Position numbers and translations under genes: made by a program
Notes under the pieces: generated by a model
What the model saw: the letters and a program-made list of their open reading frames with translations, nothing else
What the model was told of the DNA's origin: nothing
Database searches by the model: none
Assembly: GCA_951812755.1 (NCBI GenBank)
Contig: OX638329.1
Location: forward strand, 5,853,563 to 5,917,562
DNA from: an uncultured Latescibacterota bacterium
GTDB taxonomy: Bacteria; Latescibacterota; UBA2968
Length of the DNA stretch: 64,000 nt
Reading direction: 5' to 3'
In this document: positions 39,657 to 57,356 of the stretch, piece by piece
How the letters are laid out: every line of letters starts with the position of its first letter
How positions within the stretch are numbered: position 1 is the stretch's first letter

Positions 39657-39697
39657 ACAGGCACATTGAACCCAAAACAATGTGCCTGTTTTTTTTA
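39657..39697 (+). terminator. Terminator at the left edge of leader copy 1
   Basis: ACAGGCACATTG (39657-39668) pairs perfectly with CAATGTGCCTGT (39678-39689), followed by eight T residues. It is conserved in all three leader copies and insulates the sigma-54 promoter from upstream transcription. Confidence 0.85.
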
Positions 39698-39700
39698 TAA

Positions 39701-39741
39701 AGTGTTCATTTTCGGACACTACTGTATCAAAATCGGACACT
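39701..39741 (+). promoter_or_regulatory. Tandem enhancer-like sites, leader copy 1
   Basis: AGTGTTCATTTTCGGACACT (39701-39720) is followed immediately by ACTGTATCAAAATCGGACACT (39721-39741). Each ends in TCGGACACT; the first is a near-palindrome (GTGTTC/GGACAC). They lie about 85 nt upstream of the -24 element, the usual distance for activators of sigma-54 polymerase. The activator gene is not in the window. Confidence 0.65.
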
Positions 39742-39803
39742 TATTACAATGCGTTCATAGCACGAATTTTCATAACTACTTGTAAAATATAGAAAAGTGA
39801 CTT

Positions 39804-39818
39804 TGGCACAGAAATTGC
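39804..39818 (+). promoter_or_regulatory. Sigma-54 promoter, copy 1
   Basis: TGGCAC-AGAAA-TTGC, with GG (39805-39806) and GC (39817-39818) separated by exactly 10 nt, matches the -24/-12 consensus fully. The expected start of transcription is near 39830, about 50 nt before the lipoprotein ATG. Confidence 0.85.
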
Positions 39819-39880
39819 TTATCTATTTCTCATACATTAACTCATTTTCCCGACCATTTTTTGAAAAAGGAATCTCACCG

Positions 39881-40963
39881 ATGAATCGCAAAAAGTTATT
39901 GGCCCCGGTGAAATGGATGGCACTCCTCTTTCTCTTATGTGGAAGTTGCGAAAAAAGTGCTGTTGAAAATCCGCAAGATGAGGACGCCCTTAAGCCCCAT
40001 CTCTCATTGATTGATGAAATTATACTCGAACGCCCAGAGGCAGGACCTGCGCTCAGAATGGCAAACTCTATTGCGGTTATGGAGGACCATATCATTATTT
40101 TGGATTACAGGAGAAAAAGTGTCGAAGTTTTTGACATAGAGGGCAACTATAAGTGGGCTATTGGCAGTCGCGGGGATGGAGAAGGTCAGTATAAGATACC
40201 GAGAGCGCCAGTGGTTATCCCCAATACCAACCAAATACTCATCCACAATCAAGAGCGGAAGAGGCAGACGCTTCGCTTCTCGATCAAAGGTGAGTTTTTG
40301 GGAGAATTGAAACGAAGACGCTCCATGCATCAAATGTTGGTTTCTGAAGATCACAATCTCATTCATACTTATACGGACAGAAACAGAAACGGTATGCTTT
40401 GCGTCACCTCCCTCGACGCAGATGAAGTCCTCGCCAAGTTCAAAGTCTGCGAAGCTCAATACGGGAGGCTTTTTTCTACTTTTCGGCGTCTTCAAGGTCT
40501 TGCTTATGACGAGGAGCGAAAAATTATATACGTTGCCCTGCCGTGGGAAGATAAAGTGATGAGAATTGATCTGGCAACACAGGAATTTCTCACGCCTATA
40601 ATCATAAATCATCCCAAATTCATCAACCTCAAATTTGATGAGATCAAAACTGAAAACGAATCATCAAAACCTCCAAACTTTGGTAAATTTAGCAAATTGT
40701 ATGGCATGTATCTCCTGTCTTCGGGAGATATTTTACTCAGGTACATGTTCGGGGATTCACCAATGAATACCGCGCTTATACTTTTATCAGACCTAGATGC
40801 ACAGCCCTCCGCCCAGGAAGTAAAAAATGAATTGGGATACAATGCATTCACTTGTCATGGGCAGTCTGTCTATATGTATTCGCCTCCCACTGATGGCGAA
40901 GATACGAATGGCAGGATTCGCGTCTATCGTCTTATTGCCCCTCGGAAATCCCCTACCGGCTAA
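39881..40963 (+). CDS. Six-bladed beta-propeller lipoprotein, cassette 1
   Basis: A 360-residue exported protein. The N-terminus MNRKKLLAP is followed by a hydrophobic core (WMALLFLLCGSCEKS) with a cysteine suited to lipidation, though the residues before it are not a standard lipobox. The rest is repeated beta strands of the six-bladed-propeller type common in FCB bacteria: IAVMEDHIIILDYRRKSVEV, FDIEGNYKWAIGSRGDGEGQ and VVIPNTNQILIHN. I start at ATG 39881 (AAAGG upstream); the longer frame runs into the promoter. It is 43 nt before the permease gene and under the sigma-54 promoter. It is likely an envelope partner of the permease. The paralogue is at 45992. Confidence 0.85.
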   Translation: MNRKKLLAPVKWMALLFLLCGSCEKSAVENPQDEDALKPHLSLIDEIILERPEAGPALRMANSIAVMEDHIIILDYRRKSVEVFDIEGNYKWAIGSRGDGEGQYKIPRAPVVIPNTNQILIHNQERKRQTLRFSIKGEFLGELKRRRSMHQMLVSEDHNLIHTYTDRNRNGMLCVTSLDADEVLAKFKVCEAQYGRLFSTFRRLQGLAYDEERKIIYVALPWEDKVMRIDLATQEFLTPIIINHPKFINLKFDEIKTENESSKPPNFGKFSKLYGMYLLSSGDILLRYMFGDSPMNTALILLSDLDAQPSAQEVKNELGYNAFTCHGQSVYMYSPPTDGEDTNGRIRVYRLIAPRKSPTG

Positions 40964-41006: not shown

Positions 41007-43505
41007 ATGATTGCCAATTATTTCCGGACATGGTTTCGCAATGTAATCAAGTATAGAGCCTATGCCACCATTAACCTGTTGGGTTTGGGGATAGGGATTG
41101 CGTGTTGCTATCTGTGCGTGCTTTACCTCTTGTATGATTGGAGCTTTGATAGATTCCACCAGGACCATCATCGCATATATCGCATTGCAGGGAAAATAAA
41201 ATTCAGAGAAACAATAAGAGGGTCTCCTAAAGCGGGCACCTGGACTGAGACAATGTCTTTTCCTGTTGCTCTATCGCCCATGATATCTGCCGAATTTCCA
41301 GAGATTGAGCTTACAACCCGTGTAACGAGTGACCTGGTGGATTGGGCCGTGGGTACTCATAAAGAGTTTCTGCGACCCATGGAAATCACTATCGGAATGC
41401 AAAAGGTCTTATTTGTAGATAAAAGTTTCGAGGAAATGTTCTCCTTTCCCCTTATTCGCGGTACATTCTTCTCGCGTCCAGAGCAAGTGGTGATTACACG
41501 TAGATTTGCCCAGACACTTACCAACGATATTGACAGTTTGGTGGGCAAAGTCTTATGGCTGCGATTTTCTCATAGTCTCTTTAAAGACCTGGAACCTATA
41601 GTAGCCCCTATTGAAATAGGGGGCATCGTGGAAACTCCTCCCCGCAATTCGAGCCTGGATTTTGAGATACTTTTGCCATTAAGTATGTCTGCAACCTTTC
41701 TCGACAGGGAAGAAGGAGATTGGGACTGGCGCTTTGAATCCACACATTACATACGTCTGACAGACGATGTAAATATAGAGGACATGGGAAAAAAGCTCAC
41801 GGGGCTTATCCAGAAACAATCCTCTTTCAACTCCCTATGGGATTTAGAGGGCTTTCAGGCCAAGCTCCAACCCCTCACAGATATGCACCATTATCCTGGA
41901 TCGGGGCGACAGCGGGTGTATGGCGTGCGTCGAAGCACCAATCCCCTGTATGGATATATCCTCGGTGGTATGAGTGTCCTTGTGCTGTCTGTCGCGTGTC
42001 TAAATTACGTGTTGCTCTACGTGGCGCGATTCAACTCGCGTGCCAAAGAATTGAGCCTAAGGCAAGTCTTTGGCGCGAATCGACGACACCTTAGGCACCA
42101 GCTATTAGTCGAATGCTTTGGATACAGCACTTTAGCTTGCATCATAGGCATGGCAGTCGCAGAGTTGGCCTCAAGTCCCCTCGAAGGCATTTTGCAAACA
42201 CCCCTCATGTCCTCAACGGATCCCATACAGACCGCGATCATTCTCCTAACACTGGCTTGTCTGATAGGCCTGATCACAGCCCTTTACCCGGCAGCTTTTA
42301 TGTCATCTGTTTCTGCCGTCAGCGTTTTGAGCAAAACAGCAAAAGCCGTCAGATCTGGACCTTTCTTAAAGGTATTGATGGCTATCCAGTCCGGTGTGAC
42401 ATTGGTATTTGTGTTTTGTACAATCATTATCTTCGAACAGACTTTTTTTGTCATCAAGGCTGATCCGGGATTTGAACCGGCGAACCTGCTGAAGCTCGAT
42501 ATTGGCGAATTAAACGAAAATGAGATTGACCGTCTGCAAGCATCTTTATCTGAGCATTCGCTCGTGACATCCTGCGTACGGACGAACCCGCCTCTCAGAT
42601 GGTCAAACCGAATCCTGATGAAAGACAGCAGTGGCAACCTCATTGATGGAGTGACCCATTATCAAGTGGATGGTCCCTTTCTCAAGACCGTTGGGTTGCA
42701 ACTCTTACAGGGAAAACCATTGTACCCAAATCCCATTCCGGGCGATATGATCGTAAATGAAACTTTTCTAAAACACTTAACGTCTTCAGAGCCTATTGGA
42801 CAGGTGATTGAGCCAGCGAATGAGCGGTCAAAATCACGAGTATTTGGAAGTGATTTCAGTGGCCGCATCGTCGGTGTGGTCAAAGACTTTCACTTCCATG
42901 ACTTGCGCCACACCGTCTCTCCTGCCATGATCACCATTGCTCAGGAGCCACCCAGACGATCAACTTCCCCCGGAGAGATATTAATTCGCATCCAGGAGAA
43001 CAGCACCGAAAAATTTGTCCCTCACCTCGAAAAACTCTGGAAAGACCTGAAAATTGGCGGGTTACTGACATTTTCTTTCGTAGAAGATGACAGGCGACAC
43101 TTTTATGCCAAAGAAATCAGTTGGAGCAAAATCGTCTCTGGCGCAGCCCTGTGTGCTGTCCTCATCGCATCAATGGGTGCCCTGGGCATGATCTCCCTAT
43201 CTGTGGCACGCAGACGAAAGGAAATAGCCATCCGAAGGGTCATGGGCGCCGTGCCCTCAAAAATAGCCAGTGGCATAGTGCTGAACTACGCGCTGCCCGG
43301 GCTTATCGCCGCCGTCATCGCGCTGCCACTTTCCTATTTCTTTATGGACGAGTGGCTCTCAGTATTTGCCTACCGCTTTCAATTCGGCGTTGGGACGATT
43401 TTGACAGCGATCTTATTGGGCATCCTGCTTCCGCTCACAGGCGGTTTCTTACACGCGCTAAAGATCGCTTCCGAAAGCCCGAATGCTGCCCTTCGAGAGG
43501 ACTAA
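41007..43505 (+). CDS. MacB/FtsX-type permease without ATPase, cassette 1
   Basis: An 832-residue membrane protein with two tandem MacB_PCD-FtsX units. TM1 is in YATINLLGLGIGIACCYLCV, followed by a periplasmic domain (about 50-285). Three TMs follow at about 310-430, including LSVACLNYVLLYVARFNSRA and the FtsX signature KELSLRQVFGANRRHLRHQL. TM5 is in SGVTLVFVFCTIIIF (about 465). A second periplasmic domain precedes the last three TMs with LSVARRRKEIAIRRVMGAVP. In MacB/LolC relatives an ATPase in the cytoplasm drives periplasmic motion; none is encoded nearby. GCAGAGG precedes the ATG. It is similar throughout to the permeases at 47131 and 54864. Probably envelope lipoprotein/peptide handling; function unproven. 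Confidence 0.9.
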   Translation: MIANYFRTWFRNVIKYRAYATINLLGLGIGIACCYLCVLYLLYDWSFDRFHQDHHRIYRIAGKIKFRETIRGSPKAGTWTETMSFPVALSPMISAEFPEIELTTRVTSDLVDWAVGTHKEFLRPMEITIGMQKVLFVDKSFEEMFSFPLIRGTFFSRPEQVVITRRFAQTLTNDIDSLVGKVLWLRFSHSLFKDLEPIVAPIEIGGIVETPPRNSSLDFEILLPLSMSATFLDREEGDWDWRFESTHYIRLTDDVNIEDMGKKLTGLIQKQSSFNSLWDLEGFQAKLQPLTDMHHYPGSGRQRVYGVRRSTNPLYGYILGGMSVLVLSVACLNYVLLYVARFNSRAKELSLRQVFGANRRHLRHQLLVECFGYSTLACIIGMAVAELASSPLEGILQTPLMSSTDPIQTAIILLTLACLIGLITALYPAAFMSSVSAVSVLSKTAKAVRSGPFLKVLMAIQSGVTLVFVFCTIIIFEQTFFVIKADPGFEPANLLKLDIGELNENEIDRLQASLSEHSLVTSCVRTNPPLRWSNRILMKDSSGNLIDGVTHYQVDGPFLKTVGLQLLQGKPLYPNPIPGDMIVNETFLKHLTSSEPIGQVIEPANERSKSRVFGSDFSGRIVGVVKDFHFHDLRHTVSPAMITIAQEPPRRSTSPGEILIRIQENSTEKFVPHLEKLWKDLKIGGLLTFSFVEDDRRHFYAKEISWSKIVSGAALCAVLIASMGALGMISLSVARRRKEIAIRRVMGAVPSKIASGIVLNYALPGLIAAVIALPLSYFFMDEWLSVFAYRFQFGVGTILTAILLGILLPLTGGFLHALKIASESPNAALRED

Positions 43506-43526: not shown

Positions 43527-44045
43527 ATGGTCCATCCGGATAAAAATGCCATTAGAAGAAGCGCCCTCACGATTTACGACCATATTCCCGCAGAAAGACC
43601 AGATCTATATATCGCAAGCAAGAAGCTCGAAAAAATACTGAAAGAGAGTCTGATTGGCATTTCTCTCAGTGGCCTTGCGCTACGGACCAGATCAAAAGTC
43701 GTTAAAACGGAAGTATGCAAAGCAATAGGTTATCCAGTACCTGGGTCTTTCAAGAGGACACAACCGAGGTTTCCCGGACAGAACTTTGATGTATATATTC
43801 AGAAGTCGAATAACCTGCAGATTTGGAACGAGGAACTGGACGCATCGCGCAGGTACGTCATTGTGCGGGTAGATGAGGACAATCGGATAGAAGATGTCAG
43901 GGTGATTTCCGGCGCAGAACTCGCGAAACTGGATAGGACGGGCACATTAACTCAAATGAAAACCAAATGCTTTCCAGACCAATTTGTCAACTGTGTGCAT
44001 AAGTTCTGTTTTTTTGTCGGATGTGCATTCAAAAGTCTGTTTTGA
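43527..44045 (+). pseudogene. Truncated restriction-endonuclease-like gene (5' fragment)
   Basis: A 172-codon frame after AGGAG. The first 143 residues look like a conserved protein N-terminus (YIASKKLEKILKESLIGISL, LALRTRSKVVKTEVCKAIGY, FPGQNFDVYIQKSNNLQIWN, LDASRRYVIVRVDEDNRIED), which I associate with type II restriction enzymes paired with TaqI-like methylases. This family call is from memory and is moderate. After SGAELAKLDRTGTLTQ, the remaining residues are simply the antisense of the facing methylase's 3' end. The enzyme's C-terminal half therefore appears to have been lost by a deletion that joined it to the methylase gene near 43955. It is probably not an active nuclease. Confidence 0.6.
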
Positions 44046-45626
44046 CATTTCGATAAGTTGGCTTGCTGATGCCGAATCTATTCTTGGAAGAGGGAACTGC
44101 TCAACATATTGCGTCATGAATCGTCTTCTTCCGGCATATAATTTATTGTTGAAACTCCGGTCGTAAAAGCACTCTATGAATGAGGAGTTGCCTACAGCAA
44201 GAGCCAGCCAAGTAAGTACGTTTTCTTCAGAGCATGAAATCCAATAGCAGTCTCCGTTTACTACGGTGCCATCTATGTCCAGCCAAAATGTTGGATGTTT
44301 AGCTATATCCCGAAAAACGATTTTGGCTTTTTTCCAGGCTTTTGGGTCTTGAGGTACCCATATTTCATACCATTTTCTTCCTGACTCAATTACATACTTC
44401 CTGCCCTCAAGCTGATTTCTGTGTTCTTCGAGATAGGCTTTCGTTTTTGGGTAACTCGCCAGGTTGACGGCACAACGCTTTCCTTCGAGAATGGTGTGAG
44501 GGTAAAGAATCTTGCTTTCTGGTGTCTTTGACCTGTACGGATTTCCAATGTGATGGGTTGTCAAATCTTTGAGCAACTCCGGTCGTTTATCCAAAGGCAT
44601 ATCATCCCAGTCTGATCTTATGAATACGCGATCAGCGGTGGTCTTAACCCCCACTCTGATTTTGCCAAGGTCCTTGAAGGTGGCGGCGGTGTTCCTGCGA
44701 ACTCTACTTAGCCATTCTCTACTTTCCTTTGTAGAGATTCGCCAAATGTCCTCTGGGCTCCACCCTGAATCCAACTCGCCCTTCAAAACCCTGAAGTAGC
44801 CGTTAGATTTTGTTTTGACATACCCACTGCGTCGAAGGGCTTCGATTGGGCTCTCGCAATTGCGCGCTTTTTTGACGGGATCAGATGTGTAAATTGAAGT
44901 GAATTTGGCAGTGATTGAAGGCTTTGCAGAGGTTTTTGGTTTTAGCATCAGGACCGCTGGAAGCACAGCCGCCTCAAAAAGTTTTGTGTCGCCAAGATCC
45001 CAAATATGTTCAATCTCATACATTTCTTTAATTCTCGCTCTTACAGTCTCCCCGGACCTTGTCGTCATGAATCGATTAGATACGATTATTCCAAGAATGC
45101 CCTCCGGGTGAATGTATTGAGCTATCGCAATAATGAATGCATAATAGAGATCCACCCTTCCTGCCAATCCAAATCGGCGTGCTATGTCCTGAGATTTTTT
45201 TGACCCCATTACCTGGGTTCTCACATAAGGTGGATTTGAGATTACGAGATCGAATTGCTCTGGTTGTCGGCTTTGGAAAAGGTCAGGCTGGGAGAAACAG
45301 CCCGCTGATTGGGCGAGGAAGTCCCGATTGTGGAACTCAATAGCAACTTTTGGAAACTGGTCCTTTATTCTTTTTTTTGCTGCAAGCATCTCGGACTGAT
45401 TGGTTTCATATCCGCTTACGGATAGTTTCACATCCATTGCTTGTAAATTTCTTAGAACAGCAAGTAATAACTCACCGTCACCGAGAGCGGGATCGAATAC
45501 ATTGATGTTGTGTGTATTCTCTGGCGGCTTCCAAAATTTCAGCATTTCTTTTGCAACAAATTCAGATAGAGCCGGAGGCGTGTAATGCGATCCCGTTGAT
45601 TTTTGTTCTGAATTGGCTTTTATCAT
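43947..45626 (-). CDS. TaqI-like N6-adenine DNA methyltransferase
   Basis: A 559-residue DNA methyltransferase of gamma-type motif order. The segment SHYTPPALSEFVAKEML is motif X-like. SAM motif I is VFDPALGDGELLLAVL, the catalytic motif IV is FDLVISNPPYVRT, and HPEGILGIIVSNRFMTTR follows. A C-terminal TaqI-type specificity domain (KILYPHTILEGKRCAVNLAS, CYWISCSEENVLTWLALAVG, YVEQFPLPRI) completes it. It should modify adenine in a short palindrome or asymmetric site. I start at ATG 45626, preceded by AGGGA; the open frame extends 20 codons upstream. It is convergent with, and overlaps by 99 nt, the truncated endonuclease-like gene, so it may now be an orphan methylase. Confidence 0.88.
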   Translation of the reverse strand: MIKANSEQKSTGSHYTPPALSEFVAKEMLKFWKPPENTHNINVFDPALGDGELLLAVLRNLQAMDVKLSVSGYETNQSEMLAAKKRIKDQFPKVAIEFHNRDFLAQSAGCFSQPDLFQSRQPEQFDLVISNPPYVRTQVMGSKKSQDIARRFGLAGRVDLYYAFIIAIAQYIHPEGILGIIVSNRFMTTRSGETVRARIKEMYEIEHIWDLGDTKLFEAAVLPAVLMLKPKTSAKPSITAKFTSIYTSDPVKKARNCESPIEALRRSGYVKTKSNGYFRVLKGELDSGWSPEDIWRISTKESREWLSRVRRNTAATFKDLGKIRVGVKTTADRVFIRSDWDDMPLDKRPELLKDLTTHHIGNPYRSKTPESKILYPHTILEGKRCAVNLASYPKTKAYLEEHRNQLEGRKYVIESGRKWYEIWVPQDPKAWKKAKIVFRDIAKHPTFWLDIDGTVVNGDCYWISCSEENVLTWLALAVGNSSFIECFYDRSFNNKLYAGRRRFMTQYVEQFPLPRIDSASASQLIEMSKQTFECTSDKKTELMHTVDKLVWKAFGFHLS

Positions 45627-45767
45627 GATTTCCCTATCGCCCGGTTGGGTTATATTCTGTCCAGACCATACTAAACGTTTGAGCACTTGTCAATATCAAA
45701 ATCGCTCGCTATATGCTACACTTCACAGCAACTGCATCGCGAGGAGGTGGTAGTCGCCTCCGATCCA

Positions 45768-45808
45768 ACAGGCACATTGAAATCAAAACAATGTGCCTGT
45801 TTTTTTTA
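45768..45808 (+). terminator. Terminator at the left edge of leader copy 2
   Basis: The same ACAGGCACATTG/CAATGTGCCTGT hairpin and T run as at 39657. The only upstream gene points the other way, so no transcript needs ending here. That suggests it came along as part of a copied block. Confidence 0.85.
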
Positions 45809-45811
45809 TAA

Positions 45812-45852
45812 AGTGTTCATTTTCGGACACTACTGTATCAAAATCGGACACT
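45812..45852 (+). promoter_or_regulatory. Tandem enhancer-like sites, leader copy 2
   Basis: Identical to the copy 1 sites: AGTGTTCATTTTCGGACACT (45812-45831) and ACTGTATCAAAATCGGACACT-type site (45832-45852), in the same position relative to the sigma-54 promoter. Confidence 0.65.
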
Positions 45853-45914: not shown

Positions 45915-45929
45915 TGGCACAGAAATTGC
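45915..45929 (+). promoter_or_regulatory. Sigma-54 promoter, copy 2
   Basis: TGGCAC-AGAAA-TTGC with GG at 45916-45917 and GC at 45928-45929, exactly 10 nt apart. It drives the lipoprotein-permease-permease-propeller run to 54344. Confidence 0.85.
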
Positions 45930-45991
45930 TTACCTATTTCTCATACATTAACTCATTTTCCCGACCATTTTTTGAAAAAGGAATCTCACCA

Positions 45992-47080
45992 ATGAATTGC
46001 AAAAAGTTATGGATTCCCACGAGATGGATGGCACTCCTCTTTCTCTTATGTGGAAGTTGCGAAAAAAGTGCTGTTGAAAATCAGAACAATGTACTCGCCA
46101 TCAAGACGCAAGCACAAGGAACCCATCTCTCATTGACTGACGCCATTACACTCGAACGCCCAGAGACAGGACCATTTCTTGGACGTGTCCGTACCATTAC
46201 TGTTTTGGATGACTATATCATTATTGTAGATGAAAGTGTCAGAGTTTTTGACAAAGAGGGCAGCTATAAGTGGTCTATTGGTAGTCGAGGGGATGGAGAA
46301 AGCCAGTACAAGATACCGGGAGAGCCAGTGGTTATCCCCAATACCGGCCAAATTTTGATCTACGATGGAGGAACCGGGCAGACGCTTCGCTTCTCGATTA
46401 AAGGTGAATTTTTAGGGCAGTTGAAACTGCCGGAGAGGCGCTTTATTAATCGCATGGTGGTTTCTGAAGATCACAATCTCATTCATACTTATGTTGACAA
46501 AAACAAAAATGGTATGCTTTGCGTCACTCCCCTTGACACAGGTGAAGACATCGCCAGGTTCAAAGTTAGCGAGGCGAAATACAGTAACCTATTTTTCGGT
46601 TTGAAGCGTTCACAAGGGCTTGCTTATGACGAGACACGAAAAATTATATACTTTGCCCTCCCCTGGGAAGAGAAGGTTATGCGAATTGATCTGGCAGCAC
46701 AGGAATTTCTCACACCCATAACCATAAATCATCCCAAATTCATCAGCCTCAAATTAGATGAAGGAGATTATCGTAAAGATATAATAGAATTATTCCAAAA
46801 CAAGTTCAGCAGATTAGGCGGCATGTATCTCTTGTCTTCGGGCGATATATTGCTCAGGTACATGTTCGAGGATTCATCAATGAGTACCGCGCTTATACTT
46901 TTATCAGACCTGGACGTGGAGCCATCTGCCCAAGAACTAAAAAATGAACTGAGATACAATATTTTTACTTCCCATGGAAAATCCATATATACGTACTCAT
47001 CTTCCGCTGATGGCGAGGATACGAATGGCAGGATTCGCGTCTATCGTCTAACGGAACCCGAGGAAGCCCCTACCGGCTAG
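45992..47080 (+). CDS. Six-bladed beta-propeller lipoprotein, cassette 2
   Basis: A 362-residue paralogue of the protein at 39881, with the same leader (WMALLFLLCGSCEKSAVEN) and the same propeller segments (IVDESVRVFDKEGSYKWSIG, EPVVIPNTGQILIYDGGTGQ, HNLIHTYVDKNKNGMLCVTP). The N-terminal 25 codons and the end (TNGRIRVYRL) are the most alike; the middle has diverged. ATG 45992 is preceded by AAAAAGG. It lies 50 nt before the permease gene. Likely exported and anchored in the envelope. Confidence 0.85.
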   Translation: MNCKKLWIPTRWMALLFLLCGSCEKSAVENQNNVLAIKTQAQGTHLSLTDAITLERPETGPFLGRVRTITVLDDYIIIVDESVRVFDKEGSYKWSIGSRGDGESQYKIPGEPVVIPNTGQILIYDGGTGQTLRFSIKGEFLGQLKLPERRFINRMVVSEDHNLIHTYVDKNKNGMLCVTPLDTGEDIARFKVSEAKYSNLFFGLKRSQGLAYDETRKIIYFALPWEEKVMRIDLAAQEFLTPITINHPKFISLKLDEGDYRKDIIELFQNKFSRLGGMYLLSSGDILLRYMFEDSSMSTALILLSDLDVEPSAQELKNELRYNIFTSHGKSIYTYSSSADGEDTNGRIRVYRLTEPEEAPTG

Positions 47081-47130: not shown

Positions 47131-49611
47131 ATGATTGCCAATTATTTCCGAACATGGTTTCGCAATGTAATCAAGTATAAAACGTATGCAGCCATTGACC
47201 TGCTGGGTTTAGGAATCGGGATTGCCTGCTGCTATCTCTGCGTGCTTTATCTCCTCTATGATTGGAGTTTTGATAGATTTCACGAAAACCATCATCGCAT
47301 ATACGGCATTGCTGGAAAGGTAAAACACAGCAAAGGAATAATAGGGGGAAATATAGCGGGCACATGGGCTGAGACAGCTAGATTTCCTGTTGCACTGTCA
47401 TCAATGGTATCTGCTGAGTTTCCTGAGATTGAGACCACGACCCGTGTAAGGTGTGTCATCGGGACAGCGACCTGGCAGGTAGGTACTCACAAAGAGTTTC
47501 TACGGCCTATCCAGGAGATATTATTCGTCGATAGGAGTTTTGAGGAAATGTTTTCCTTTCCTCTTATTCGTGGAACTTTCTTTGCGCGTCCAGGGCAAGT
47601 CGTGATCACACGTAGATTCGCTCAGACACTTACCAACGATATTGACAGTTTGATTGGCAAAGTGTTATGGATGCGCGTTGCTTCTCGCAGGTTCTCGAGA
47701 GATATGAAACCCGTAGTAGCCCCTGTTGAAATAGGGGGCATCGTGGAAACACCTCCCCGCAATTCGAGCCTGAATTTTGAGATTCTGTTGCCATTAAGTA
47801 TGTCTTCAACCTTTCTCGATGAGCAAGAAGGAGAATGGGACTGGGGCTTTGAATCCACACATTACATCCGCCTGACAGACGGAGCCAATATGGATGAAGT
47901 GGAGGAAAAGCTCACGGCGTTCATGCAGAAACAATCCTCCTTCAACTCGCTATGGGATTTAGAGACCTTTCAGGCCAAACTGCAATCCATCACAGATTTG
48001 CACCATTATACTGGTCCGTTTATTGATGGTGTGTTTCGCTACACGAATCCCTTATATGGATATATTCTCGGCGGTATCAGTATCCTCGTGCTGTCTGTCG
48101 CGTGTTTGAATTATGTACTCCTCTATGTGGGACGATTCAACTCGCGTGCCAAAGAATTGAGCTTACGACAAGTCTTTGGTGCTAACCGCCGGCATCTCAT
48201 GCACCAGCTATTAGTCGAATGCTTTGGATACAGCATTTTGGCCTGCATCATAGGCATGGCAGTCGCAGAGTTGGCCTCAAGCCCCCTCGAAGGCATTTTA
48301 CGAACCCCACTCATGTCCTCAACAGACCCCATTCAAACCGTGACCGTTCTCCTAACATTGGCTTGTCTGATAGGTCTGGGCACAGCCCTTTACCCGGCAG
48401 CCTTCATGTCGTCTGTTTCCGCCGTCAGCGTTTTGAGCAAAACAGCAAAAGCTGTCAGATCTGGACCTTTCTTAAAGATATTGATGGCTATCCAGTCCGG
48501 TGTGACATTAGTATTTGTATTTTGCACAATCATTATCTTTGAACAGACTTTTTTCGTCATGAAGGCTGATCCGGGCTTTGAACCGGCGAACCTGGTCAGA
48601 CTCAATACCACTGGATTGACAAAAAATGAGGTTGATCGTCTGCAAGCGTCTTTATCTGCATCTCCTCTCGTGATATCCTGCGTGCGGACGAACCTGCCGT
48701 TCGGATGGTCAAACGCAATTCTAATCAAAGACAGCAATGGCAAACTCATTGATAACATAACCTGTTATCAGGTAGATGGTCCCTTTCTCGAGACCGTTGG
48801 GTTGAAACTCTTACAGGGAAGAGCCTTACATCCCAATCCCATCCCGGGCGATGTGCTTGTGAATGAAGCCTTCCAGAAGCACCTGACATCGCCCCAACCT
48901 CTTGGACAGGTGATCACACAAACGGATACAAAATTCAGAAGACCCGTATTTGACCGCGATGTCAACGGTCACATCGTCGGTGTGGTTAAAAATTTTCACG
49001 TTAGAAACTTGCGCCACAACGCCCCACCCACGATTATCACAATTGCCCCTGATGGTACAACAACTGAGCGACAAGACCTCGAAATATTGATTCGGATTCG
49101 AGAAGGCAGTGCCAAAGCATTTGGTGCGTATCTCAAGGGATTCTGGGAAAACCTCAAAACGGAACAGCACCTGACATTTTCCTACGTAGAAGATGAAAGA
49201 CAAAAATTTTACGCCAAAGAAATCAGTTGGAGCAAAATCGTCTCTGGTGCGGCTTTGTGCGCTATCCTCATCGCATCCATGGGTGCGATGGGCATGATCT
49301 CCCTATCTGTGGCACGCAGAAGAAAGGAAATCGCTATCCGAAGGGTCATGGGTGCCGTGCCCTCAAAAATTGCCAGTGGGATTGTGCTGAACTATGCGCT
49401 GCCCGGGTTTATAGCCGCCGTCATCGCACTTCCGCTCTCCTATTTCTTTATGGACGAGTGGCTCTCAATATTTGCCTACCGCTTTCAATTCGGCGTTGGC
49501 ACGATTTTGACAGCGATCTTATTGGGCATCCTGCTTCCACTAATATGCGGCTTCGTACACGCGCTGAAAGTCGCCTCTAATAGTCCAATCGAAGCCCTTA
49601 GAGAGGACTGA
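47131..49611 (+). CDS. MacB/FtsX-type permease without ATPase, cassette 2
   Basis: An 826-residue permease with the same two PCD-FtsX units as its paralogue at 41007 (MIANYFRTWFRNVIKYKTYA, LSLRQVFGANRRHLMHQLLV, SVARRRKEIAIRRVMGAVPS). The periplasmic domains differ most (for example FIDGVFRYTNPLYGY), which suggests different partners or cargo. The C-terminus LICGFVHALKVASNSPIEAL is distinct from cassettes 1 and 3. GCAGAGG precedes the ATG. It is 121 nt from a second, more distant permease. Confidence 0.9.
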   Translation: MIANYFRTWFRNVIKYKTYAAIDLLGLGIGIACCYLCVLYLLYDWSFDRFHENHHRIYGIAGKVKHSKGIIGGNIAGTWAETARFPVALSSMVSAEFPEIETTTRVRCVIGTATWQVGTHKEFLRPIQEILFVDRSFEEMFSFPLIRGTFFARPGQVVITRRFAQTLTNDIDSLIGKVLWMRVASRRFSRDMKPVVAPVEIGGIVETPPRNSSLNFEILLPLSMSSTFLDEQEGEWDWGFESTHYIRLTDGANMDEVEEKLTAFMQKQSSFNSLWDLETFQAKLQSITDLHHYTGPFIDGVFRYTNPLYGYILGGISILVLSVACLNYVLLYVGRFNSRAKELSLRQVFGANRRHLMHQLLVECFGYSILACIIGMAVAELASSPLEGILRTPLMSSTDPIQTVTVLLTLACLIGLGTALYPAAFMSSVSAVSVLSKTAKAVRSGPFLKILMAIQSGVTLVFVFCTIIIFEQTFFVMKADPGFEPANLVRLNTTGLTKNEVDRLQASLSASPLVISCVRTNLPFGWSNAILIKDSNGKLIDNITCYQVDGPFLETVGLKLLQGRALHPNPIPGDVLVNEAFQKHLTSPQPLGQVITQTDTKFRRPVFDRDVNGHIVGVVKNFHVRNLRHNAPPTIITIAPDGTTTERQDLEILIRIREGSAKAFGAYLKGFWENLKTEQHLTFSYVEDERQKFYAKEISWSKIVSGAALCAILIASMGAMGMISLSVARRRKEIAIRRVMGAVPSKIASGIVLNYALPGFIAAVIALPLSYFFMDEWLSIFAYRFQFGVGTILTAILLGILLPLICGFVHALKVASNSPIEALRED

Positions 49612-49732
49612 TACGCGAATCTCTACATGTCTTCCAAGCCTTTGCCTCCCATAGTTCGGACAGATTTAAGCGCCAACCTCCGAATAGGCTAAGGTGCATT
49701 TTAGTCTGATCATACGACAAAAGGATCCCAAA

Positions 49733-52222
49733 TTGTTGCGAAATTATCTCATAACAGCACTGCGCCATTTTACCAGGCAGAAAGTTTATTCGGTCATTAA
49801 TGTGCTTGGCCTGGCGATGAGTACTGCTTTTTGTTTTCTTGCGTTTTTATATGTGCAGCATGAGTGGAGCTATGATCAATTTCATAAGCATGCCGACCAG
49901 ATCTATCGTCTAATTAGCTTTAGAAAAGGAAAAACGGGCGACATGCATATGTTAACCATTTTACCTGAAAATTTAGGTCCACTTTTAAAAGCAGAATTTC
50001 CCCAATTAGATCGGGTCATTCGCATAGTCAAAAATGATAATTTAGTCATTCGCACTGGTGACCGGCGGTATAGAGAAGATGTATTATTCATAGATGAAGA
50101 TTTTTTTGACCTATTCTCATTTCCACTTAGCCAAGGCAATCCAGAGACATTTCGAACCGATCCTCAGTCTTTGGTATTGAGCGAATCAGCAGCTCAGAAC
50201 CTTTTCCCGGGAGAAAATCCTATCGGTAAAGAAATTATTATAGCGTCTCACCATTGGAAGAATGAACCCAAAACCCTGACAGTTGGCGGTGTGGCATTAG
50301 ATCCACCATCTAATTCCAGTATTCAATTCAAAATTCTTGTGCCCTATAAACTGATCCCCCCAAGAGTATCAGGTATGCCTGCTTCACCAATGAATGATCC
50401 CTCCAAACTCAACTTCTTTCTTCCTCGGGATTATATTTTTGTGCGACTTCACGCCCGGGCAAATTTAGAGGATCTAAATAATTCACTGCCTGCATTTATC
50501 AATACGCACCGAATACCAGGGATAGAGACTTCGCTACAATTTCAGCCATTAACGGACGTGCATTTTGATCAACGCCCGACATTTCTCCCGCTAATGCTTT
50601 CTGGCAATCCAGTATATGCCTACATCCTTTCTGCTATTGCAGGCATGGTGCTACTGATTGCAAGTGTAAATTTCATGAATTTGGCAACTGCGCGTTTTTC
50701 AACAAGAGCACGGGAAGTGGGGATACGCAAGGTAGTGGGTGCTCAGAGAACCCATTTAATGTGGCAATTTTGGGGTGAATCAATTGTGATGACAGCAATA
50801 GCCATGATACTCGGTATTTCACTTGCAGAACTCTGCCTACCTACTTTCAACAGCCTCATACAAACTCACTTGCTTATGACTGACATGTTCACACTGTCAT
50901 TTGTCTTATTCGCATTTGTTTTAATGGTCTTTATCGCTCTCATCTCCGGCTTGTATCCCGCGGTCAATTTGTCGGGCTTTCAGGCTGTGACAGTATTAAA
51001 AGAAAAAATACGATTGGGAAGCAGTGGGTCTATTCTACGCGCGTTGATTATTGTACAATTTGTGGGATCAATCCTGCTGGTAACCATAACGACGGTCATG
51101 TTTCTGCAAGTATCATTTATTAAAGCGAAAGACCTGGGGATTGATGGAGATCAAATCGCAGTCATTTCAACGGAGGATCTGTTCAACCAAAGCAATATGG
51201 AGGGAAAAAATCGCAGACACTTATTTGAGACCTTCCAACAACAACTCAACAGTCACCCGAATATTCTCGGCGTAAGCCGTTCTGATCTATTTTCAGATAT
51301 AGATTCAGATTATCAGTTTAGCGAACTATCCGTGCGATCTCCTGAAGGTAACGAGTTTTACATACCCTATATCGACATTGAAAAAAATTTCTTGCAAGTA
51401 TTGGGCATTGAATTGCTACATGGACAGCCGTTTTCAGACCACACCATCAATTTGCAACGTACAGTCCTGGTAAATGAAACGCTTGTCAAGCAATTGGGTC
51501 TGTCTCAGCCATTAGGGCATCAAGTCCCGTTAACCAGACGTATTTTAGACGGTACGAATATTAACAAGATGAAGTTCAGAATGATTAGAAATCCCGAAAT
51601 TGCAGGTATCGTAAAAGATTTTCATGTTCAATCACTCCATCAAGCAGTTCCGCCCCTGATTATGTTTTTGAGACCAGAGGTGCAAACAGGAGAATTTCTC
51701 GTTCGCATTCGTTCTGAGCGAATGCCAGAGACCCTGGATTTTATAGCGGGACAATGGAAACGGGTATTTGGTATAACACCATTTGATTATGCCTTTTTAA
51801 ATGAACGATTCGATCATTTATATCAACAAGAAGAGCGTTGGTCCTCAATGGTAGCCTACGCTTCAATATTCGCGCTTGTTGTTGCTTGTCTCGGCGTATT
51901 GGGTTTGACAGCGATGACCATCTCCAAGAGAACCAAAGAGTTTGGCATCCGTAAAGTGTTCGGTGCTTCCACAAAACACATTGTGACATTGCTTGCGACG
52001 GATTTTATTTTACTGATTACAATTGCGACACTCGTCGCCTGGCCGCTCGCATATTATGTTGCAAGTCAATGGTTGCAAAATTTTGCCTACCGCATCAATT
52101 TAGGATTTGAGATATTTTTCTTTAGCGGGGCAATGACGATCGTTATCGTCTTAGCGACCATTATCATCCTGACAATAAGGGTCACGCGATGTAATCCCGT
52201 AGAGATTTTGAAATATGAATAA
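49733..52222 (+). CDS. FtsX-type permease, second subfamily
   Basis: An 829-residue permease with the same overall plan but a different sequence: VYSVINVLGLAMSTAFCFLA (TM1), FMNLATARFSTRAREVGIRK-VVGAQRTHLMWQF (first FtsX unit), ILRALIIVQFVGSILLVTIT (middle TM), and LTAMTISKRTKEFGIRKVFG with three C-terminal TMs. This form is like permeases widespread in Bacteroidota. I choose a TTG start at 49733: AAAGGA lies 8 nt upstream, and LLRNYLITALRHF then aligns with MIANYFRTWFRNV of the paralogues. The GTG at 49694 would add 13 unsupported residues. It overlaps the next gene by 8 nt. Confidence 0.85.
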   Translation: MLRNYLITALRHFTRQKVYSVINVLGLAMSTAFCFLAFLYVQHEWSYDQFHKHADQIYRLISFRKGKTGDMHMLTILPENLGPLLKAEFPQLDRVIRIVKNDNLVIRTGDRRYREDVLFIDEDFFDLFSFPLSQGNPETFRTDPQSLVLSESAAQNLFPGENPIGKEIIIASHHWKNEPKTLTVGGVALDPPSNSSIQFKILVPYKLIPPRVSGMPASPMNDPSKLNFFLPRDYIFVRLHARANLEDLNNSLPAFINTHRIPGIETSLQFQPLTDVHFDQRPTFLPLMLSGNPVYAYILSAIAGMVLLIASVNFMNLATARFSTRAREVGIRKVVGAQRTHLMWQFWGESIVMTAIAMILGISLAELCLPTFNSLIQTHLLMTDMFTLSFVLFAFVLMVFIALISGLYPAVNLSGFQAVTVLKEKIRLGSSGSILRALIIVQFVGSILLVTITTVMFLQVSFIKAKDLGIDGDQIAVISTEDLFNQSNMEGKNRRHLFETFQQQLNSHPNILGVSRSDLFSDIDSDYQFSELSVRSPEGNEFYIPYIDIEKNFLQVLGIELLHGQPFSDHTINLQRTVLVNETLVKQLGLSQPLGHQVPLTRRILDGTNINKMKFRMIRNPEIAGIVKDFHVQSLHQAVPPLIMFLRPEVQTGEFLVRIRSERMPETLDFIAGQWKRVFGITPFDYAFLNERFDHLYQQEERWSSMVAYASIFALVVACLGVLGLTAMTISKRTKEFGIRKVFGASTKHIVTLLATDFILLITIATLVAWPLAYYVASQWLQNFAYRINLGFEIFFFSGAMTIVIVLATIIILTIRVTRCNPVEILKYE

Positions 52223-54344
52223 AATAAGAACCTGCATAATTCTACTGGTGCAACAAAAAAAACTATGTCGCTTCCTCTCCAGCATCTTGATTGGTCTATG
52301 CTTCATCAACAATATAGAAGCCCAAAAACTCATTCGAGGCACAGTTAAAAACGCTGATGATAATTCTTTTTTGCCCAATGCTTCTATTGTTATTGAAGGC
52401 ACCCAAATGGGTACGATGGCCAATGATCAAGGCGTGTTTGAACTCAACTTGTGGCAACTACCTGTGGTTCTTCAAATCAGCCATATTGGATATCGCACAG
52501 AACGAAAAATTATATCTGTGGAAACGCCAAACGAATGTGATATCTTGCTAAAACCCAAATTATTAAAGTTAGATGAAATCATAGTTACTGCTACCCATGA
52601 ATACCTGCAACAATTAACACAAGATGGGGGTTGGGATGGTGAGTGGTCACCAGATGGACAGCAAGTTGCATTTTGCAGCATTCAAAATGGAAATTCAGAT
52701 ATTTGGATCCAACCCATAGTTAGCGAAACACCTATAAGATGGACAAAACACCCGGCTTGGGATGCATCACCGACATGGTCACCCGATGGCACAACAATCG
52801 CATTTACGTCTTACCGAGATGACACCCTCAAAGTTTGGTTAAAACATGTGACCGGTAGTGAAATAAAACCTGTGACATCATCAAATGATGAATTGGCAGA
52901 TGATTTTGGAGATGAGCTCCTTTTCGAAAATGCGCGGATAACGTGGTCACCCGATGGCAAGCATATTGTGTTTAGCAAAAAGAGCGGAAAGAATTGGCAA
53001 AAACGCTATATTCGAGAACTATGGCGAAAGTCAATAGTGGATAGCAGCCCTTCTCATCTATTGGTCACAGGCTCGATATCGCGCAGAGATTTTGCAAACC
53101 AATCCAGTGCAACGTGGTCTCCAGACCATAAACGCATGGCATTTCAAGATGGACGCCAAATATTTCTTTGGGAAATTGATGCAAATGAAACCAGACTTTT
53201 GGGAAGAGGGGAAGAACCTGCCTGGTCACCTAACGGGAGATGGATAGCATATATTCAAAGTGATAGCACCAGGACGAAGGATATCTGGGTTAAGCAAGTT
53301 GATGGAAATCAGATGCTTCGGTTAACGCAGACGCCGACCAAACAAGAGTCTTCGCCCCATTGGTCGCCTGATGGACAATTTCTACTTTTTGGAATGCGAG
53401 AAGCTGGCTACGACTTGTGGAGTCTATCTTTAAACGACAGTAAGCTTACCAAATTGGCAAGTGGTATAGCAGACGCAGACTGGTCACCAGATGGAGACAC
53501 AATAGGATTCGCAGCTTATACAGACGAGGGATTAACACTGTTCACAATGCCCAGTTCAGGAGGTAACTGGACAGCACTTACAAAACCTGGCGCGATTCCC
53601 AATCCTTTTGGTGGATTGAGCTGGTCCCCTGATGGGCAGGAATTTGCTGGCGTATTGTACGGACGTCAAAATAAGATATGGCGTCTCAACATTAGTACAG
53701 GCGCGATGCAAACGGTGATGGATTTTAGGGACATCGGAAAAGGTTACTGGCGACTCTGGAAACACAGTGCGCCTCGTTGGTCTCCAAATGGTAAGCAACT
53801 TGTCGTAACAGCTCAATTGAGTACCTGGTTGACCCGGGTCTGGTATACTCAAAAAGATGGAAGGACAATAGACTCACAACAATTTTTGGATACAAAGCGT
53901 GAATGGTTGATGAGCGATATACGTGAGCCATTCGGTGCGTTGCATCCATCCTGGTCGCCTGATGGTACACAGATAGCATTCACTTATGTGACGATTTCTG
54001 AACACCCCCAAAAAGGGAATGCTACAGCCCAAACCATTTGGACTACTTCCATTGATAACGGGGAACCAACGCAACTCGCAGAAGGCTTTTGGCCTGTCTG
54101 GTCTCCCAATGGCCAAAAATTGCTTTTTCTTCGCCAGAATGAGGCAGGTGCTTTTCGTGAGCTATGGACAATGCCATCTAAGGGAGGCACACCTGAAAAA
54201 ATCCTGGGAGGTATGCCGGGCCTGATAAATGCGAGGTGGGCACCTGCGGGAGATCGAATCCTTTTTCTCACAGTGCCCTATAGAAATCTCTGGATTATGA
54301 GTCTTGCTGGCACTAAATTTCTGCCTTACTTGAACGAAAAATAA
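52215..54344 (+). CDS. CarboxypepD_reg-like/12-blade PD40 propeller fusion
   Basis: A 709-residue exported protein. The signal region (FLSSILIGLCFINNIEAQ) is followed by a CarboxypepD_reg-like domain (LIRGTVKNADDNSFLPNASI through DILLKPKLLKLDEIIVTATH), the module that normally precedes a TonB-dependent barrel. Instead of a barrel comes a PD40/TolB-like array. I count 12 WSP-x-G blades, from GEWSPDGQQVAF to RWAPAGDRILF, enough for two six-bladed propellers. It overlaps the permease gene by 8 nt and is the last gene of the cassette 2 operon. It could present or sense an envelope ligand for the permeases; this is inference. Confidence 0.85.
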   Translation: MNKIRTCIILLVQQKKLCRFLSSILIGLCFINNIEAQKLIRGTVKNADDNSFLPNASIVIEGTQMGTMANDQGVFELNLWQLPVVLQISHIGYRTERKIISVETPNECDILLKPKLLKLDEIIVTATHEYLQQLTQDGGWDGEWSPDGQQVAFCSIQNGNSDIWIQPIVSETPIRWTKHPAWDASPTWSPDGTTIAFTSYRDDTLKVWLKHVTGSEIKPVTSSNDELADDFGDELLFENARITWSPDGKHIVFSKKSGKNWQKRYIRELWRKSIVDSSPSHLLVTGSISRRDFANQSSATWSPDHKRMAFQDGRQIFLWEIDANETRLLGRGEEPAWSPNGRWIAYIQSDSTRTKDIWVKQVDGNQMLRLTQTPTKQESSPHWSPDGQFLLFGMREAGYDLWSLSLNDSKLTKLASGIADADWSPDGDTIGFAAYTDEGLTLFTMPSSGGNWTALTKPGAIPNPFGGLSWSPDGQEFAGVLYGRQNKIWRLNISTGAMQTVMDFRDIGKGYWRLWKHSAPRWSPNGKQLVVTAQLSTWLTRVWYTQKDGRTIDSQQFLDTKREWLMSDIREPFGALHPSWSPDGTQIAFTYVTISEHPQKGNATAQTIWTTSIDNGEPTQLAEGFWPVWSPNGQKLLFLRQNEAGAFRELWTMPSKGGTPEKILGGMPGLINARWAPAGDRILFLTVPYRNLWIMSLAGTKFLPYLNEK

Positions 54345-54366
54345 CCCACAACCAAAAGGAATACAC

Positions 54367-54594
54367 ATGAGCGAAAGACCCAATATCCTATTTACATGAC
54401 CGATGATCATGCATCGCATGCCATGAGTTGTTATAACAGTCGGATTAACGAAACGCCCAATCTGGACCGCATAGCCGAAGGCGGGATGCGCTTTAACAAT
54501 TGCTTTTGCACCAACTCAATCTGCGCGCCGAGCCGGGCAGTAATCTTGACCGGAACGTACAATCACATCAACGGCGTAACCACATCGCGCAGTT
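54367..54594 (+). pseudogene. 5' fragment of a sulfatase gene, frameshifted
   Basis: This is a copy of the first 228 bp of the sulfatase gene at 58908, including AAGGAATACACATGAG upstream, with about a dozen differences. One base is missing near 54391 (CTATTTACATGACC against CTATTTATCATGACC), breaking the frame after ten codons. The similarity stops after GGCGTAACCACA. The following ATCGCGCAGTTGAATTAG resembles the end of the oligogalacturonate-lyase-like gene (39313-39330), and leader copy 3 begins shortly after. Dead fragment. Confidence 0.85.
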
Positions 54595-54648
54595 GAATTA
54601 GAGAATCGAAAAAACCATGCGTTAAAGCTCATTTATTTCACAAATCCA

Positions 54649-54687
54649 ACAGGCACATTGAAGTTAAAACAATGTGCCTGTTTTTTA
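54649..54687 (+). terminator. Terminator at the left edge of leader copy 3
   Basis: The same ACAGGCACATTG/CAATGTGCCTGT hairpin, here with six T residues. It would end the operon that starts at the copy 2 promoter, which otherwise has no terminator. Confidence 0.85.
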
Positions 54688-54690
54688 TAA

Positions 54691-54731
54691 AGTGTTCATT
54701 TTCGGACACCACTGTATCAAAATCGGACACT
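54691..54731 (+). promoter_or_regulatory. Tandem enhancer-like sites, leader copy 3
   Basis: Same two sites as in copies 1 and 2 with one change (GGACACC for GGACACT at the end of site 1, 54691-54710). Site 2 at 54711-54731 is unchanged. Confidence 0.65.
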
Positions 54732-54793
54732 TATGACAAGGCACTCACGGCACTAATTTTCATAACTACTTGTAAAGCATAGAAAAGAAACTT

Positions 54794-54808
54794 TGGCACA
54801 GAAATTGC
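54794..54808 (+). promoter_or_regulatory. Sigma-54 promoter, copy 3
   Basis: TGGCAC-AGAAA-TTGC with GG at 54795-54796 and GC at 54807-54808. It lies only 56 nt before the permease ATG, because the propeller-lipoprotein gene is absent in this copy. Confidence 0.85.
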
Positions 54809-54863
54809 TTACCTATTTCTCATACATTCATTTTACTCTATAAATCATTGCAGAGGATAACTG

Positions 54864-57356
54864 ATGATTGCCAATTATTTCCGAACATGGTTTCGCAATG
54901 TAATCAAGTATAGAACCTATGCCGCCATTAACCTGCTGGGTTTGGGGATAGGGATTGCCTGCTGCTATCTGTGTGTGCTTTACATCCTGTACGATTGGAG
55001 CTTTGACAGGTTCCACCAGGATTATCACCGCATATACCGCGTTACTGGGAAAATGCAGTATTGGAAAAGAATGGGTGGCCCTATAGCGGGCACATGGGCT
55101 GAGACGGTCCATTTTCCGGTCCCATTGGCATCGGTGATGTCTGTTGAGATTCCAGAAATCGAGACTGCTACCAGTGTAAAAGATATCAAGTCTTTTCCTC
55201 CAACAAATAAGGCGATGTGGCGCGTGGGTATTCACGAAAATTTTCTGCGGGATATAGAAGACGTCGTGTTCGTAGATAGTAAGTTCGTGGAGATTTTTTC
55301 TTTTCCTATCATCAGTGGTACGTTCCCTTCAACCCCCGGGCAAGTCGTGATCACACGCGCATTCGCTCAGACGCTTGCCAACGATATTGACAGTTTGTTA
55401 GACCAGGTGTTATGGATGCAACCCCCCGATCGACCATTTTCCAGAAACCAGCAAAATGCAGTCCCCGTTAAAATCGGGGGCATCGTGGAAACCCCTCCTC
55501 GCAATTCGAGTCTGACATTCGAGATACTTGTGCCTCTTACTATGTATTCAACCTTTCGAAAAGTAAGGAAGCGAGAATGGGATTGGATCTTTAGTGCCAA
55601 TCATTATATCCGCCTATCAGAAGAATCGCCTATAAATATCGTAGAGGAAAAACTCACACAGGTCATCCAGAAGCGATCAGCCTTCAACTCGCTACGGGAT
55701 GTATCTACCTTTGAGGCCAAACTGCAACCCATCACGGATTTGCACCATATAGTTAAGGGAATCGGTGGTGATGGTGTGCGTCCAGGTACCAATCCGATAT
55801 ATGGCTACATTCTCGCCGGTATGGGTGTCCTGATCCTGTCTGTGGCTTGTTTGAATTACGTGCTACTCTACGTGGCGCGGTTCAATTCGCGTACCAAAGA
55901 ACTGAGCATAAGACAAATCTTTGGCGCAAACCGACGGCAACTCCGATACCAGCTATTGGTCGAATGCTTTGGATACAGCATTTTGGCGTGCGTCATAGGC
56001 CTGGCAATCGCAGAATTAGCTTCAGGTCCCCTCGAAGGCATTTTGAAAACCTCATTCATGTCCTCAACGGATCCCATACAGACCGCGATCATTCTCCTAT
56101 CGCTTGCCTGTCTAATAGGTCTGGGCACGGCCCTTTACCCGGCCGCCTTTATGTCATCTGTTTCTGCGATCAGCGTTCTAAACAAAACAGCAAGAGCCGC
56201 CAGGTCTGGACCTTTTTTGAAAATATTAATGGCCATCCAATCCGGCGTGACATTGGTATTTGTGTTTTGCACAATCATTATCTTTCAACAGACCTATTTC
56301 GTTGTCACGGCGGATCCGGGATTTGAACCCGCGAATTTGGTCAGACTCAGTATCAGAGGATTGACGCAAAATGAGGCTGCTCGCCTGCAAGCATCTTTAT
56401 CCGAGCACCCGCTTGTAGCCACTTGTGTCCGGGAGGATGGATCTGCAGGGATTCAGATGAGGGACAGCAATGGCAACTTGATTGATGGGGTGATTACCTA
56501 TGAAGCAGATGGTGACTTTCTCAAGACTTTGGGATTGAAACTCTTACAGGGAAAATCATTGTATCCAAATCCCATTCAGAGTAATGTGATAGTGAATGAA
56601 GCCTTCCTAAAACGCCTGGCATCGGCACAACCTCTTGGACAGGTGATCACTCAGGCAGATGAAAATACAAGCTCCCGAGAGTTTGGGCGCAATGTCAGTG
56701 GCCGCATTGTGGGTGTGGTCAAAGACTTTCACTTCCGAGACTTGCGCCACACAGCCCCGCCTACCGTCATCGCCATTGCCGATGATGCGACCACATTTTT
56801 ATTTAAGGGAAAATATATCACTGGAGAAATATTAATTCGCGTCCGAGAGAACAGTGCCGATCAATTTGTCCCTTACCTCGAAAAACTCTGGAAAGATCTG
56901 AAAATTGGCGGGTTGCTGACATTTTCCTTCGTAGAAGATGAAAGGCGAACATTTTACGCCAAAGAAATCAGTTGGAGCAAAATCGTCTCTGGTGCAGCCC
57001 TGTGTGCTGTCCTCATCGCGTCAATGGGTGCTCTGGGCATGATCTCCCTATCTGTGGCTCGCAGAAGAAAGGAAATCGCCATCCGAAGGGTCATGGGTGC
57101 CGTGCCCTCAAAAATAGCCAGTGGGATTGTACTGAACTACGCACTACCTGGATTTATAGCCGCTATCATCGCGCTTCCACTCTCGTATTTCTTTATGGAC
57201 GAGTGGCTCTCGATATTTGCCTACCGTTTTCAATTCGGCGTTATTACTATATTGGTGGCGATCTTATTGGGCATCCTGCTTCCGCTCACAGGCGGTTTCT
57301 TACACGCGCTAAAGATCGCTTCCGAAAGCCCGAATGCTGCCCTTCGAGAGGACTGA
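54864..57356 (+). CDS. MacB/FtsX-type permease without ATPase, cassette 3
   Basis: An 830-residue third paralogue of the 41007/47131 type (MIANYFRTWFRNVIKYRTYA, LSIRQIFGANRRQLRYQLLV, SVARRRKEIAIRRVMGAVPS). Its last 97 nt are identical to cassette 1 (LTGGFLHALKIASESPNAAL), while its 3' flank (GATACGCGAAT, then TACATG) follows cassette 2, so the gene is mosaic. GCAGAGG precedes the ATG. It is directly under leader copy 3 and is followed 84 nt later by a secreted LRR protein. Confidence 0.9.
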   Translation: MIANYFRTWFRNVIKYRTYAAINLLGLGIGIACCYLCVLYILYDWSFDRFHQDYHRIYRVTGKMQYWKRMGGPIAGTWAETVHFPVPLASVMSVEIPEIETATSVKDIKSFPPTNKAMWRVGIHENFLRDIEDVVFVDSKFVEIFSFPIISGTFPSTPGQVVITRAFAQTLANDIDSLLDQVLWMQPPDRPFSRNQQNAVPVKIGGIVETPPRNSSLTFEILVPLTMYSTFRKVRKREWDWIFSANHYIRLSEESPINIVEEKLTQVIQKRSAFNSLRDVSTFEAKLQPITDLHHIVKGIGGDGVRPGTNPIYGYILAGMGVLILSVACLNYVLLYVARFNSRTKELSIRQIFGANRRQLRYQLLVECFGYSILACVIGLAIAELASGPLEGILKTSFMSSTDPIQTAIILLSLACLIGLGTALYPAAFMSSVSAISVLNKTARAARSGPFLKILMAIQSGVTLVFVFCTIIIFQQTYFVVTADPGFEPANLVRLSIRGLTQNEAARLQASLSEHPLVATCVREDGSAGIQMRDSNGNLIDGVITYEADGDFLKTLGLKLLQGKSLYPNPIQSNVIVNEAFLKRLASAQPLGQVITQADENTSSREFGRNVSGRIVGVVKDFHFRDLRHTAPPTVIAIADDATTFLFKGKYITGEILIRVRENSADQFVPYLEKLWKDLKIGGLLTFSFVEDERRTFYAKEISWSKIVSGAALCAVLIASMGALGMISLSVARRRKEIAIRRVMGAVPSKIASGIVLNYALPGFIAAIIALPLSYFFMDEWLSIFAYRFQFGVITILVAILLGILLPLTGGFLHALKIASESPNAALRED

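Follow-up and report, generated by a model that had tools for sequence, protein, structure and literature searches.

A candidate two-component/sigma-54 regulon of duplicated MacB/FtsX permeases, with co-regulated ATPases and an adaptor, in a Latescibacterota genome

Orphan duplicated permeases form large paralogous sets in Acidobacteriota and Bacteroidota. The acidobacterium CO124 carries 102 of them (PMC10564751) and two Dyadobacter genomes carry 28 and 33 (PMC11573002); large ADOP sets are known from Acidobacteriota and Dyadobacter, and many of the acidobacterial members are transcribed (PMC10564751, PMC11573002). In MacB, the coupling helix communicates with the ATPase domain and transmits ATPase motion (PMC5985334). 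Sigma-54 promoters are enriched before COG0577 (FtsX-like) permeases in gammaproteobacteria, Opitutia and Bacteroidia (PMC12316311). The literature that was searched contained no paper assigning an ATPase, a regulator or a function to orphan duplicated permeases.

Here, a preliminary description of three permease cassettes in the window (the whole 64,000-nucleotide stretch of DNA that was analysed) is followed through the genome, a single contig of 6.53 Mb, and through 64 genomes of the phylum. New are a DNA element, a candidate activator and sensor kinase, and a regulon that unites many permeases with few ATPases and a single adaptor. Since the regulator, the DNA element and the candidate ATPases and adaptor can all be named, partnership and induction are directly testable. 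If sharing of the ATPases is true, it would represent an unusual many-to-few arrangement among ABC pumps.

The three cassettes of the window

About 150 bp are common to three places in the window at 95% identity (39691-39838, 45802-45949 and 54681-54828), each with a gene for a MacB/FtsX permease of about 830 residues downstream. Repeat search, alignment and domain matches agree on these three blocks, as the preliminary description had read them. All cassette features lie on the forward strand. Every copy is preceded by a terminator-like 13-bp hairpin with a T run, predicted by folding at −19.3 kcal/mol with z near −6 (39656..39690 for copy 1, a member of repeat family D16; 45767..45801 for copy 2; 54648..54682 for copy 3). 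All three copies carry two upstream sites, GTGTTCATTTTCGGACAC and TGTATCAAAATCGGACAC, and a sigma-54 −24/−12 box, TGGCACAGAAATTGCT. In copy 1, site 1, a putative activator site whose palindromic form TGTCCG-N4-CGGACA is seen elsewhere, lies at 39702..39719, site 2 at 39723..39740 and the box at 39804..39819, 91 nt from site 1. The two sites span 45813..45851 in copy 2 and 54692..54730 in copy 3, with boxes at 45915..45930 and 54794..54809, respectively.

The genes behind the blocks follow the order first described. Copies 1 and 2 head a DUF5128 six-bladed beta-propeller gene, whose product, with a lipoprotein-like leader, is a probable lipoprotein (39881..40963 and 45992..47080), followed by the ADOP-like duplicated MacB_PCD/FtsX permease (41007..43505, 832 aa, in copy 1; 47131..49611, 826 aa and 77% identical to it, in copy 2). 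We place the starts of the two propeller genes at about 39881 and 45992; the ORF starts at 39797 and 45914 are upstream of or inside the promoter. Behind copy 2 lie two genes without a leader of their own, a diverged fourth permease of 842 aa, 28% identical to that of copy 1 (49694..52222), and a PD40/TolB-like propeller protein with a carboxypeptidase-regulatory-like domain (52215..54344). Copy 3 heads a permease of 830 aa, 72% identical to that of copy 1 (54864..57356), with a leucine-rich repeat (LRR) protein of 500 aa encoded about 33 nt 3' of it (57390..58892). The suggestion that such envelope partners are exchangeable is borne out thinly at the genome level: propellers occur at two of the 13 two-site elements and LRR proteins likewise at two, and most elements head permeases alone. 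The absence of an ABC ATPase from the region stands: 39657-57356 contains no ABC_tran domain, and going upstream along the genome the first one is met after about 28 kb.

Copies 1 and 2 are separated by an Eco57I-type N6-methylase gene on the reverse strand (43947-45686). Together with a convergent ORF of 172 aa that matches no family, it occupies 43527-45686 and is probably a restriction-modification insertion between the two cassettes. Between the PD40 gene and cassette 3, 231 bp (54355-54584) match the beginning of the sulfatase gene at 58908 with 95% identity; because of this copy, cassette 3 has probably arisen by duplication.

The control element and its candidate activator

Where the preliminary description knew three leaders, the genome holds 13 copies of a paired element, CGGACAC-N14-CGGACAC, of which 12 are exact and one differs at a single position. 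Permease genes or operons follow all 13. A further copy, with one site, precedes the gene of a MacB-type ATPase that stands alone. The copy at 4696968 is a perfect palindrome, TGTCCGAAAACGGACA, and defines the site. In 12 of the 13 copies the half-site is 90-92 nt from the promoter; in the thirteenth (4849643) the best box is weaker and about 177 nt away. The element has the features of a sigma-54 promoter with enhancers, namely a −24/−12 box (TGGC/TTGC) and upstream sites at a fixed distance. About two-thirds of the permeases lack a leader immediately upstream, some being inside operons and others isolated. By title and abstract, none of the papers found on CGGACA with sigma-54 describes this element.

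The same geometry was found in relatives. The two-site block is present in 14 of 64 phylum genomes and a looser composite pattern in 20, together 22, while control patterns gave zero matches in the scan of these 64 genomes. Half-site and TGGC are 90-93 nt apart in 76 of 82 copies, and within the genus a genome carries about 2-13 elements, in agreement with the expansion proposed earlier. The immediate operons of the 82 full elements include a permease in 62 cases, an ATPase in 19 and an adaptor in 15, and 71 elements head at least one of the three. Of the 11 exceptions, three lie close to or at the end of a contig or narrowly exceed the gap limit, two correspond to the 2107213 locus as orthologs, their permeases being further on, two are in genome G061, and four, at three places in the distant genome G009, which lacks the activator described below, stand before other secreted proteins. 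Leader copies ahead of unrelated genes would have counted against the preliminary reading; this is mostly not the case, apart from the G009 matches.

Several loci show further arrangements. In G007 and G009, which belong to a distant family, paired palindromic sites occur with −24/−12 boxes. An ECF sigma factor-like gene stands first behind the element in four operons (by domain scan in one of them, L172); because of this position, an ECF cascade may lie downstream of the element. At three loci of relatives a propeller and permease pair without a leader lies behind a subtilisin-like protein; two of these have a small, precursor-like Cys-containing peptide (70-76 aa) in between, one of the two with an ABC exporter and a rhodanese-domain protein downstream; this is possibly a peptide natural-product cluster. 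In another phylum, an orphan permease is preceded by TGTACGATTACGGACA 89 nt before TGGCACAGCGGTTGCA (L085:3850-3970); it is the sole case among 39 genomes of its phylum, and we claim no general rule of conservation across phyla.

A sigma-54 promoter calls for an activator, and the search for one yielded a candidate through adjacency and co-occurrence in relatives. In eight genomes of four families, an activator gene lies within a few hundred bp of an element, and in four of these the gene, of response-regulator type and with a histidine kinase gene behind it, stands face to face with the element of the adaptor operon. The ortholog in the window's genome, 63-68% identical to four element-linked activators, is an NtrC-type protein of 460 aa (225147-226529, minus strand) with receiver, Sigma54_activat and HTH_8 domains (Pfam) in one chain and a loop reading GAFTDA instead of GAFTGA. 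A sensor histidine kinase gene overlaps its end (223814 to about 225150, minus strand). This ortholog scores 623-773 bits against relatives in the element-linked group, and the next activator of the same genome 301. RpoN is encoded by a single gene. Orthologs of the activator were found in 28 phylum genomes, comprising 20 of the 22 with the element and 8 of the 42 in which the element was not found at the stringency used (Fisher 2.5e-8). These genome counts are non-independent, phylogeny being handled by the genus-level count alone, which points in the same direction (7/8 versus 2/16, p = 7e-4). At six loci (L129-L133 and L139) stand other regulators, a set of paralogous activators (about 1060-1100 aa) in which a propeller sensor of two-component type is apparently fused to a sigma-54 AAA+ domain; some of them, by eye, adjoin genes for secreted dockerin/LRR-like proteins. 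They were dropped as candidate regulators of the element for want of a link to it.

Taken with the fixed geometry and the empty control scans, the activator/kinase pair upholds the earlier proposal of coordinate sigma-54 control, and regulation of the permease set by the element is well supported. That a different one of the genome's roughly 25 activators drives the element is rather improbable. In the window's genome the candidate is linked to none of the elements, and no ortholog was detected in two genomes that have elements (G009, which lacks a close one, and the fragmented MAG G036); against this stand the adjacency in eight genomes and the strong co-occurrence. Alternatively, the leader might spread from locus to locus as a mobile or converted repeat and matter little for regulation. 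Leader-bearing permeases are indeed scattered on the permease tree, with 10 label changes against a shuffled mean of 10.7, and some leaders share 82-87% of their spacer in an ungapped comparison (shuffled baseline 0.35; a gapped version, with a shuffled baseline of 0.72, was discarded), even though the permeases behind them are 30-50% identical. This sharing suggests that the promoter unit has recently spread or been converted among loci, a process that would be secondary, as most leader pairs are unlike. Spread of a promoter unit that works would fit a sigma-54 regulon, whereas a repeat of little regulatory meaning is highly improbable: spacing and half-sites stay the same from genus to genus and from family to family, most paralog spacers have diverged, pump genes follow nearly every copy, and genomes with the element tend to have the activator too.

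Permeases, ATPases and adaptor

The genome contains 73 MacB_PCD matches. Clear relatives of the window permeases number about 37, of which 35 are full length in the stretches read, with intact ORFs; many are clustered at 461-520 kb and others lie around 2.1 Mb. An AlphaFold model of the copy 1 permease (pLDDT 81.7, pTM 0.77) has YbbP as its closest solved fold, then MacB, with BceB and LolE further down. The protein has the hallmarks of a type VII ABC permease, an FtsX core, a periplasmic core and a coupling helix between TM2 and TM3; in the model, the two coupling-helix motifs form short helices at 342-354 and 737-745, after the second transmembrane helix of each half.

The operon behind the element at 476347 (minus strand) encodes permeases, an HlyD/DarC-like adaptor (471672), an ATPase (468227), a permease, a second ATPase (464495) and a permease. 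The second ATPase is 53% identical to the first. An orphan MacB-like ATPase, of the kind that the preliminary description proposed to look for, is encoded at 5324066-5324740 (minus strand); it is DarD-like, of 224 aa, and has one intact site 71 nt before TGGCACGGATATTGC. This site stands at the usual site 2 position, and about 20 bp are missing, which removes the second site. Both sites are present at orthologs of this gene in five relatives. NCBIfam models were scanned for the adaptor, which matches DarC best, and for the 468227 and lone ATPases, which match DarD best; the permeases match DarB second, after ADOP.

With the element heading both the adaptor/ATPase operon and the lone ATPase, the earlier suggestion that the permeases share a distant ATPase gains indirect support. 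Its alternative, that they are envelope sensors or structural components in no need of ATP, with a true loss of the ATPase, is disfavoured and very unlikely. Most of the permeases do have no neighbouring ATPase, and some 37 of them face three linked or lone ATPases. However, the two coupling-helix motifs are the most conserved 20-mers among the 35 full-length permeases, invariant or nearly so, and ATPase genes bear the same element in the window's genome and in relatives. Since the coupling helix appears to be under selection in permeases that have no linked ATPase, the sequences argue that some ATPase is used by the unlinked permeases. This could be a housekeeping type VII ATPase (LolD-, FtsE- or YbbA-like) in place of the co-regulated DarD-like proteins. 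Several LolD-like ATPases, 38-48% identical to the 468227 ATPase, are encoded elsewhere in the genome, conserved coupling helices would also fit LolD-type use, and co-regulation alone does not prove partnership. We regard such use as unlikely, as most of the other small LolD-like loci read have their own permease (230 to 1100 aa) alongside, and the co-regulated ATPases and adaptor find their best models in the same exporter, whose permease model is the second match of the permeases. The co-regulated DarD-like proteins are the natural ATPase candidates, and from co-regulation and coupling-helix conservation we infer that many permeases share few ATPases and one adaptor in trans.

These data have led us to propose, as the probable arrangement, a single two-component/sigma-54 regulon in which many type VII permeases are served in trans by few ATPases and one adaptor. 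The sensor histidine kinase would phosphorylate the NtrC-type activator (REC, AAA+ with the GAFTDA loop, Fis-type HTH), allowing it to bind the pair of TGTCCG-N4-CGGACA-type sites, which lie some 70 and 91 nt before the −24/−12 box. The 13-14 loci would then be induced together, providing duplicated permeases, the DarC-like adaptor and three MacB/DarD-type ATPases, with propeller lipoproteins and LRR proteins co-induced at some loci. ATPases and adaptor would serve many permeases in trans, presumably in tripartite assemblies, the two permease halves engaging two ATPase subunits via the two coupling helices. The resulting mechanotransmission pump would move envelope or periplasmic substrates, for which peptides are a guess. 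More tentatively, the system may be a combinatorial exporter, in which dozens of permeases, interchangeable and induced at the same time, are energised through a single adaptor and a few ATPases. One two-component signal would then deploy a whole set of type VII pumps, and the orphan ADOP permeases known elsewhere may function alike.

Relation to described pump systems

The closest described family is ADOP (TIGR03434), with proteins of about 800 aa and two MacB/FtsX halves, mostly without an adjacent ATPase and with many paralogs per genome. The window copies share this architecture, each being a single chain of about 800 aa made of two MacB_PCD/FtsX halves, with no ATPase encoded alongside. 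However, they score 189.7 to 251.9 bits against a curated cut-off of 622.3, and the paralogs described here have a defined sigma-54 element in common with ATPase and adaptor genes. The darobactin exporter DarBCD (NF038008/NF038010/NF038007) is alike in the models matched by adaptor, ATPases and permeases, but its cut-offs are missed as well (DarB up to 96 of 700, DarC 195 of 450 and DarD 278 of 375). Furthermore, no darA or darE, RiPP precursor or radical SAM enzyme is seen in the operon as read, and one adaptor and three ATPases stand here against about 37 permeases. Because both the ADOP and the DarB cut-offs are failed, we describe the permeases as ADOP/DarB-like, outside both family memberships.

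MacA-MacB-TolC and YbbAP, both of type VII ABC, share with this system the fold, the coupling helices and a MacA-like adaptor, and a duplicated permease with a separate ATPase is the arrangement of YbbAP; here, in contrast, permease genes vastly outnumber the ATPases and are mostly unlinked to them. Finally, the reported enrichment of sigma-54 promoters before FtsX-like permeases is encountered here in a different phylum, and with an enhancer pair, a named activator and kinase, and a list of the genes in the regulon.
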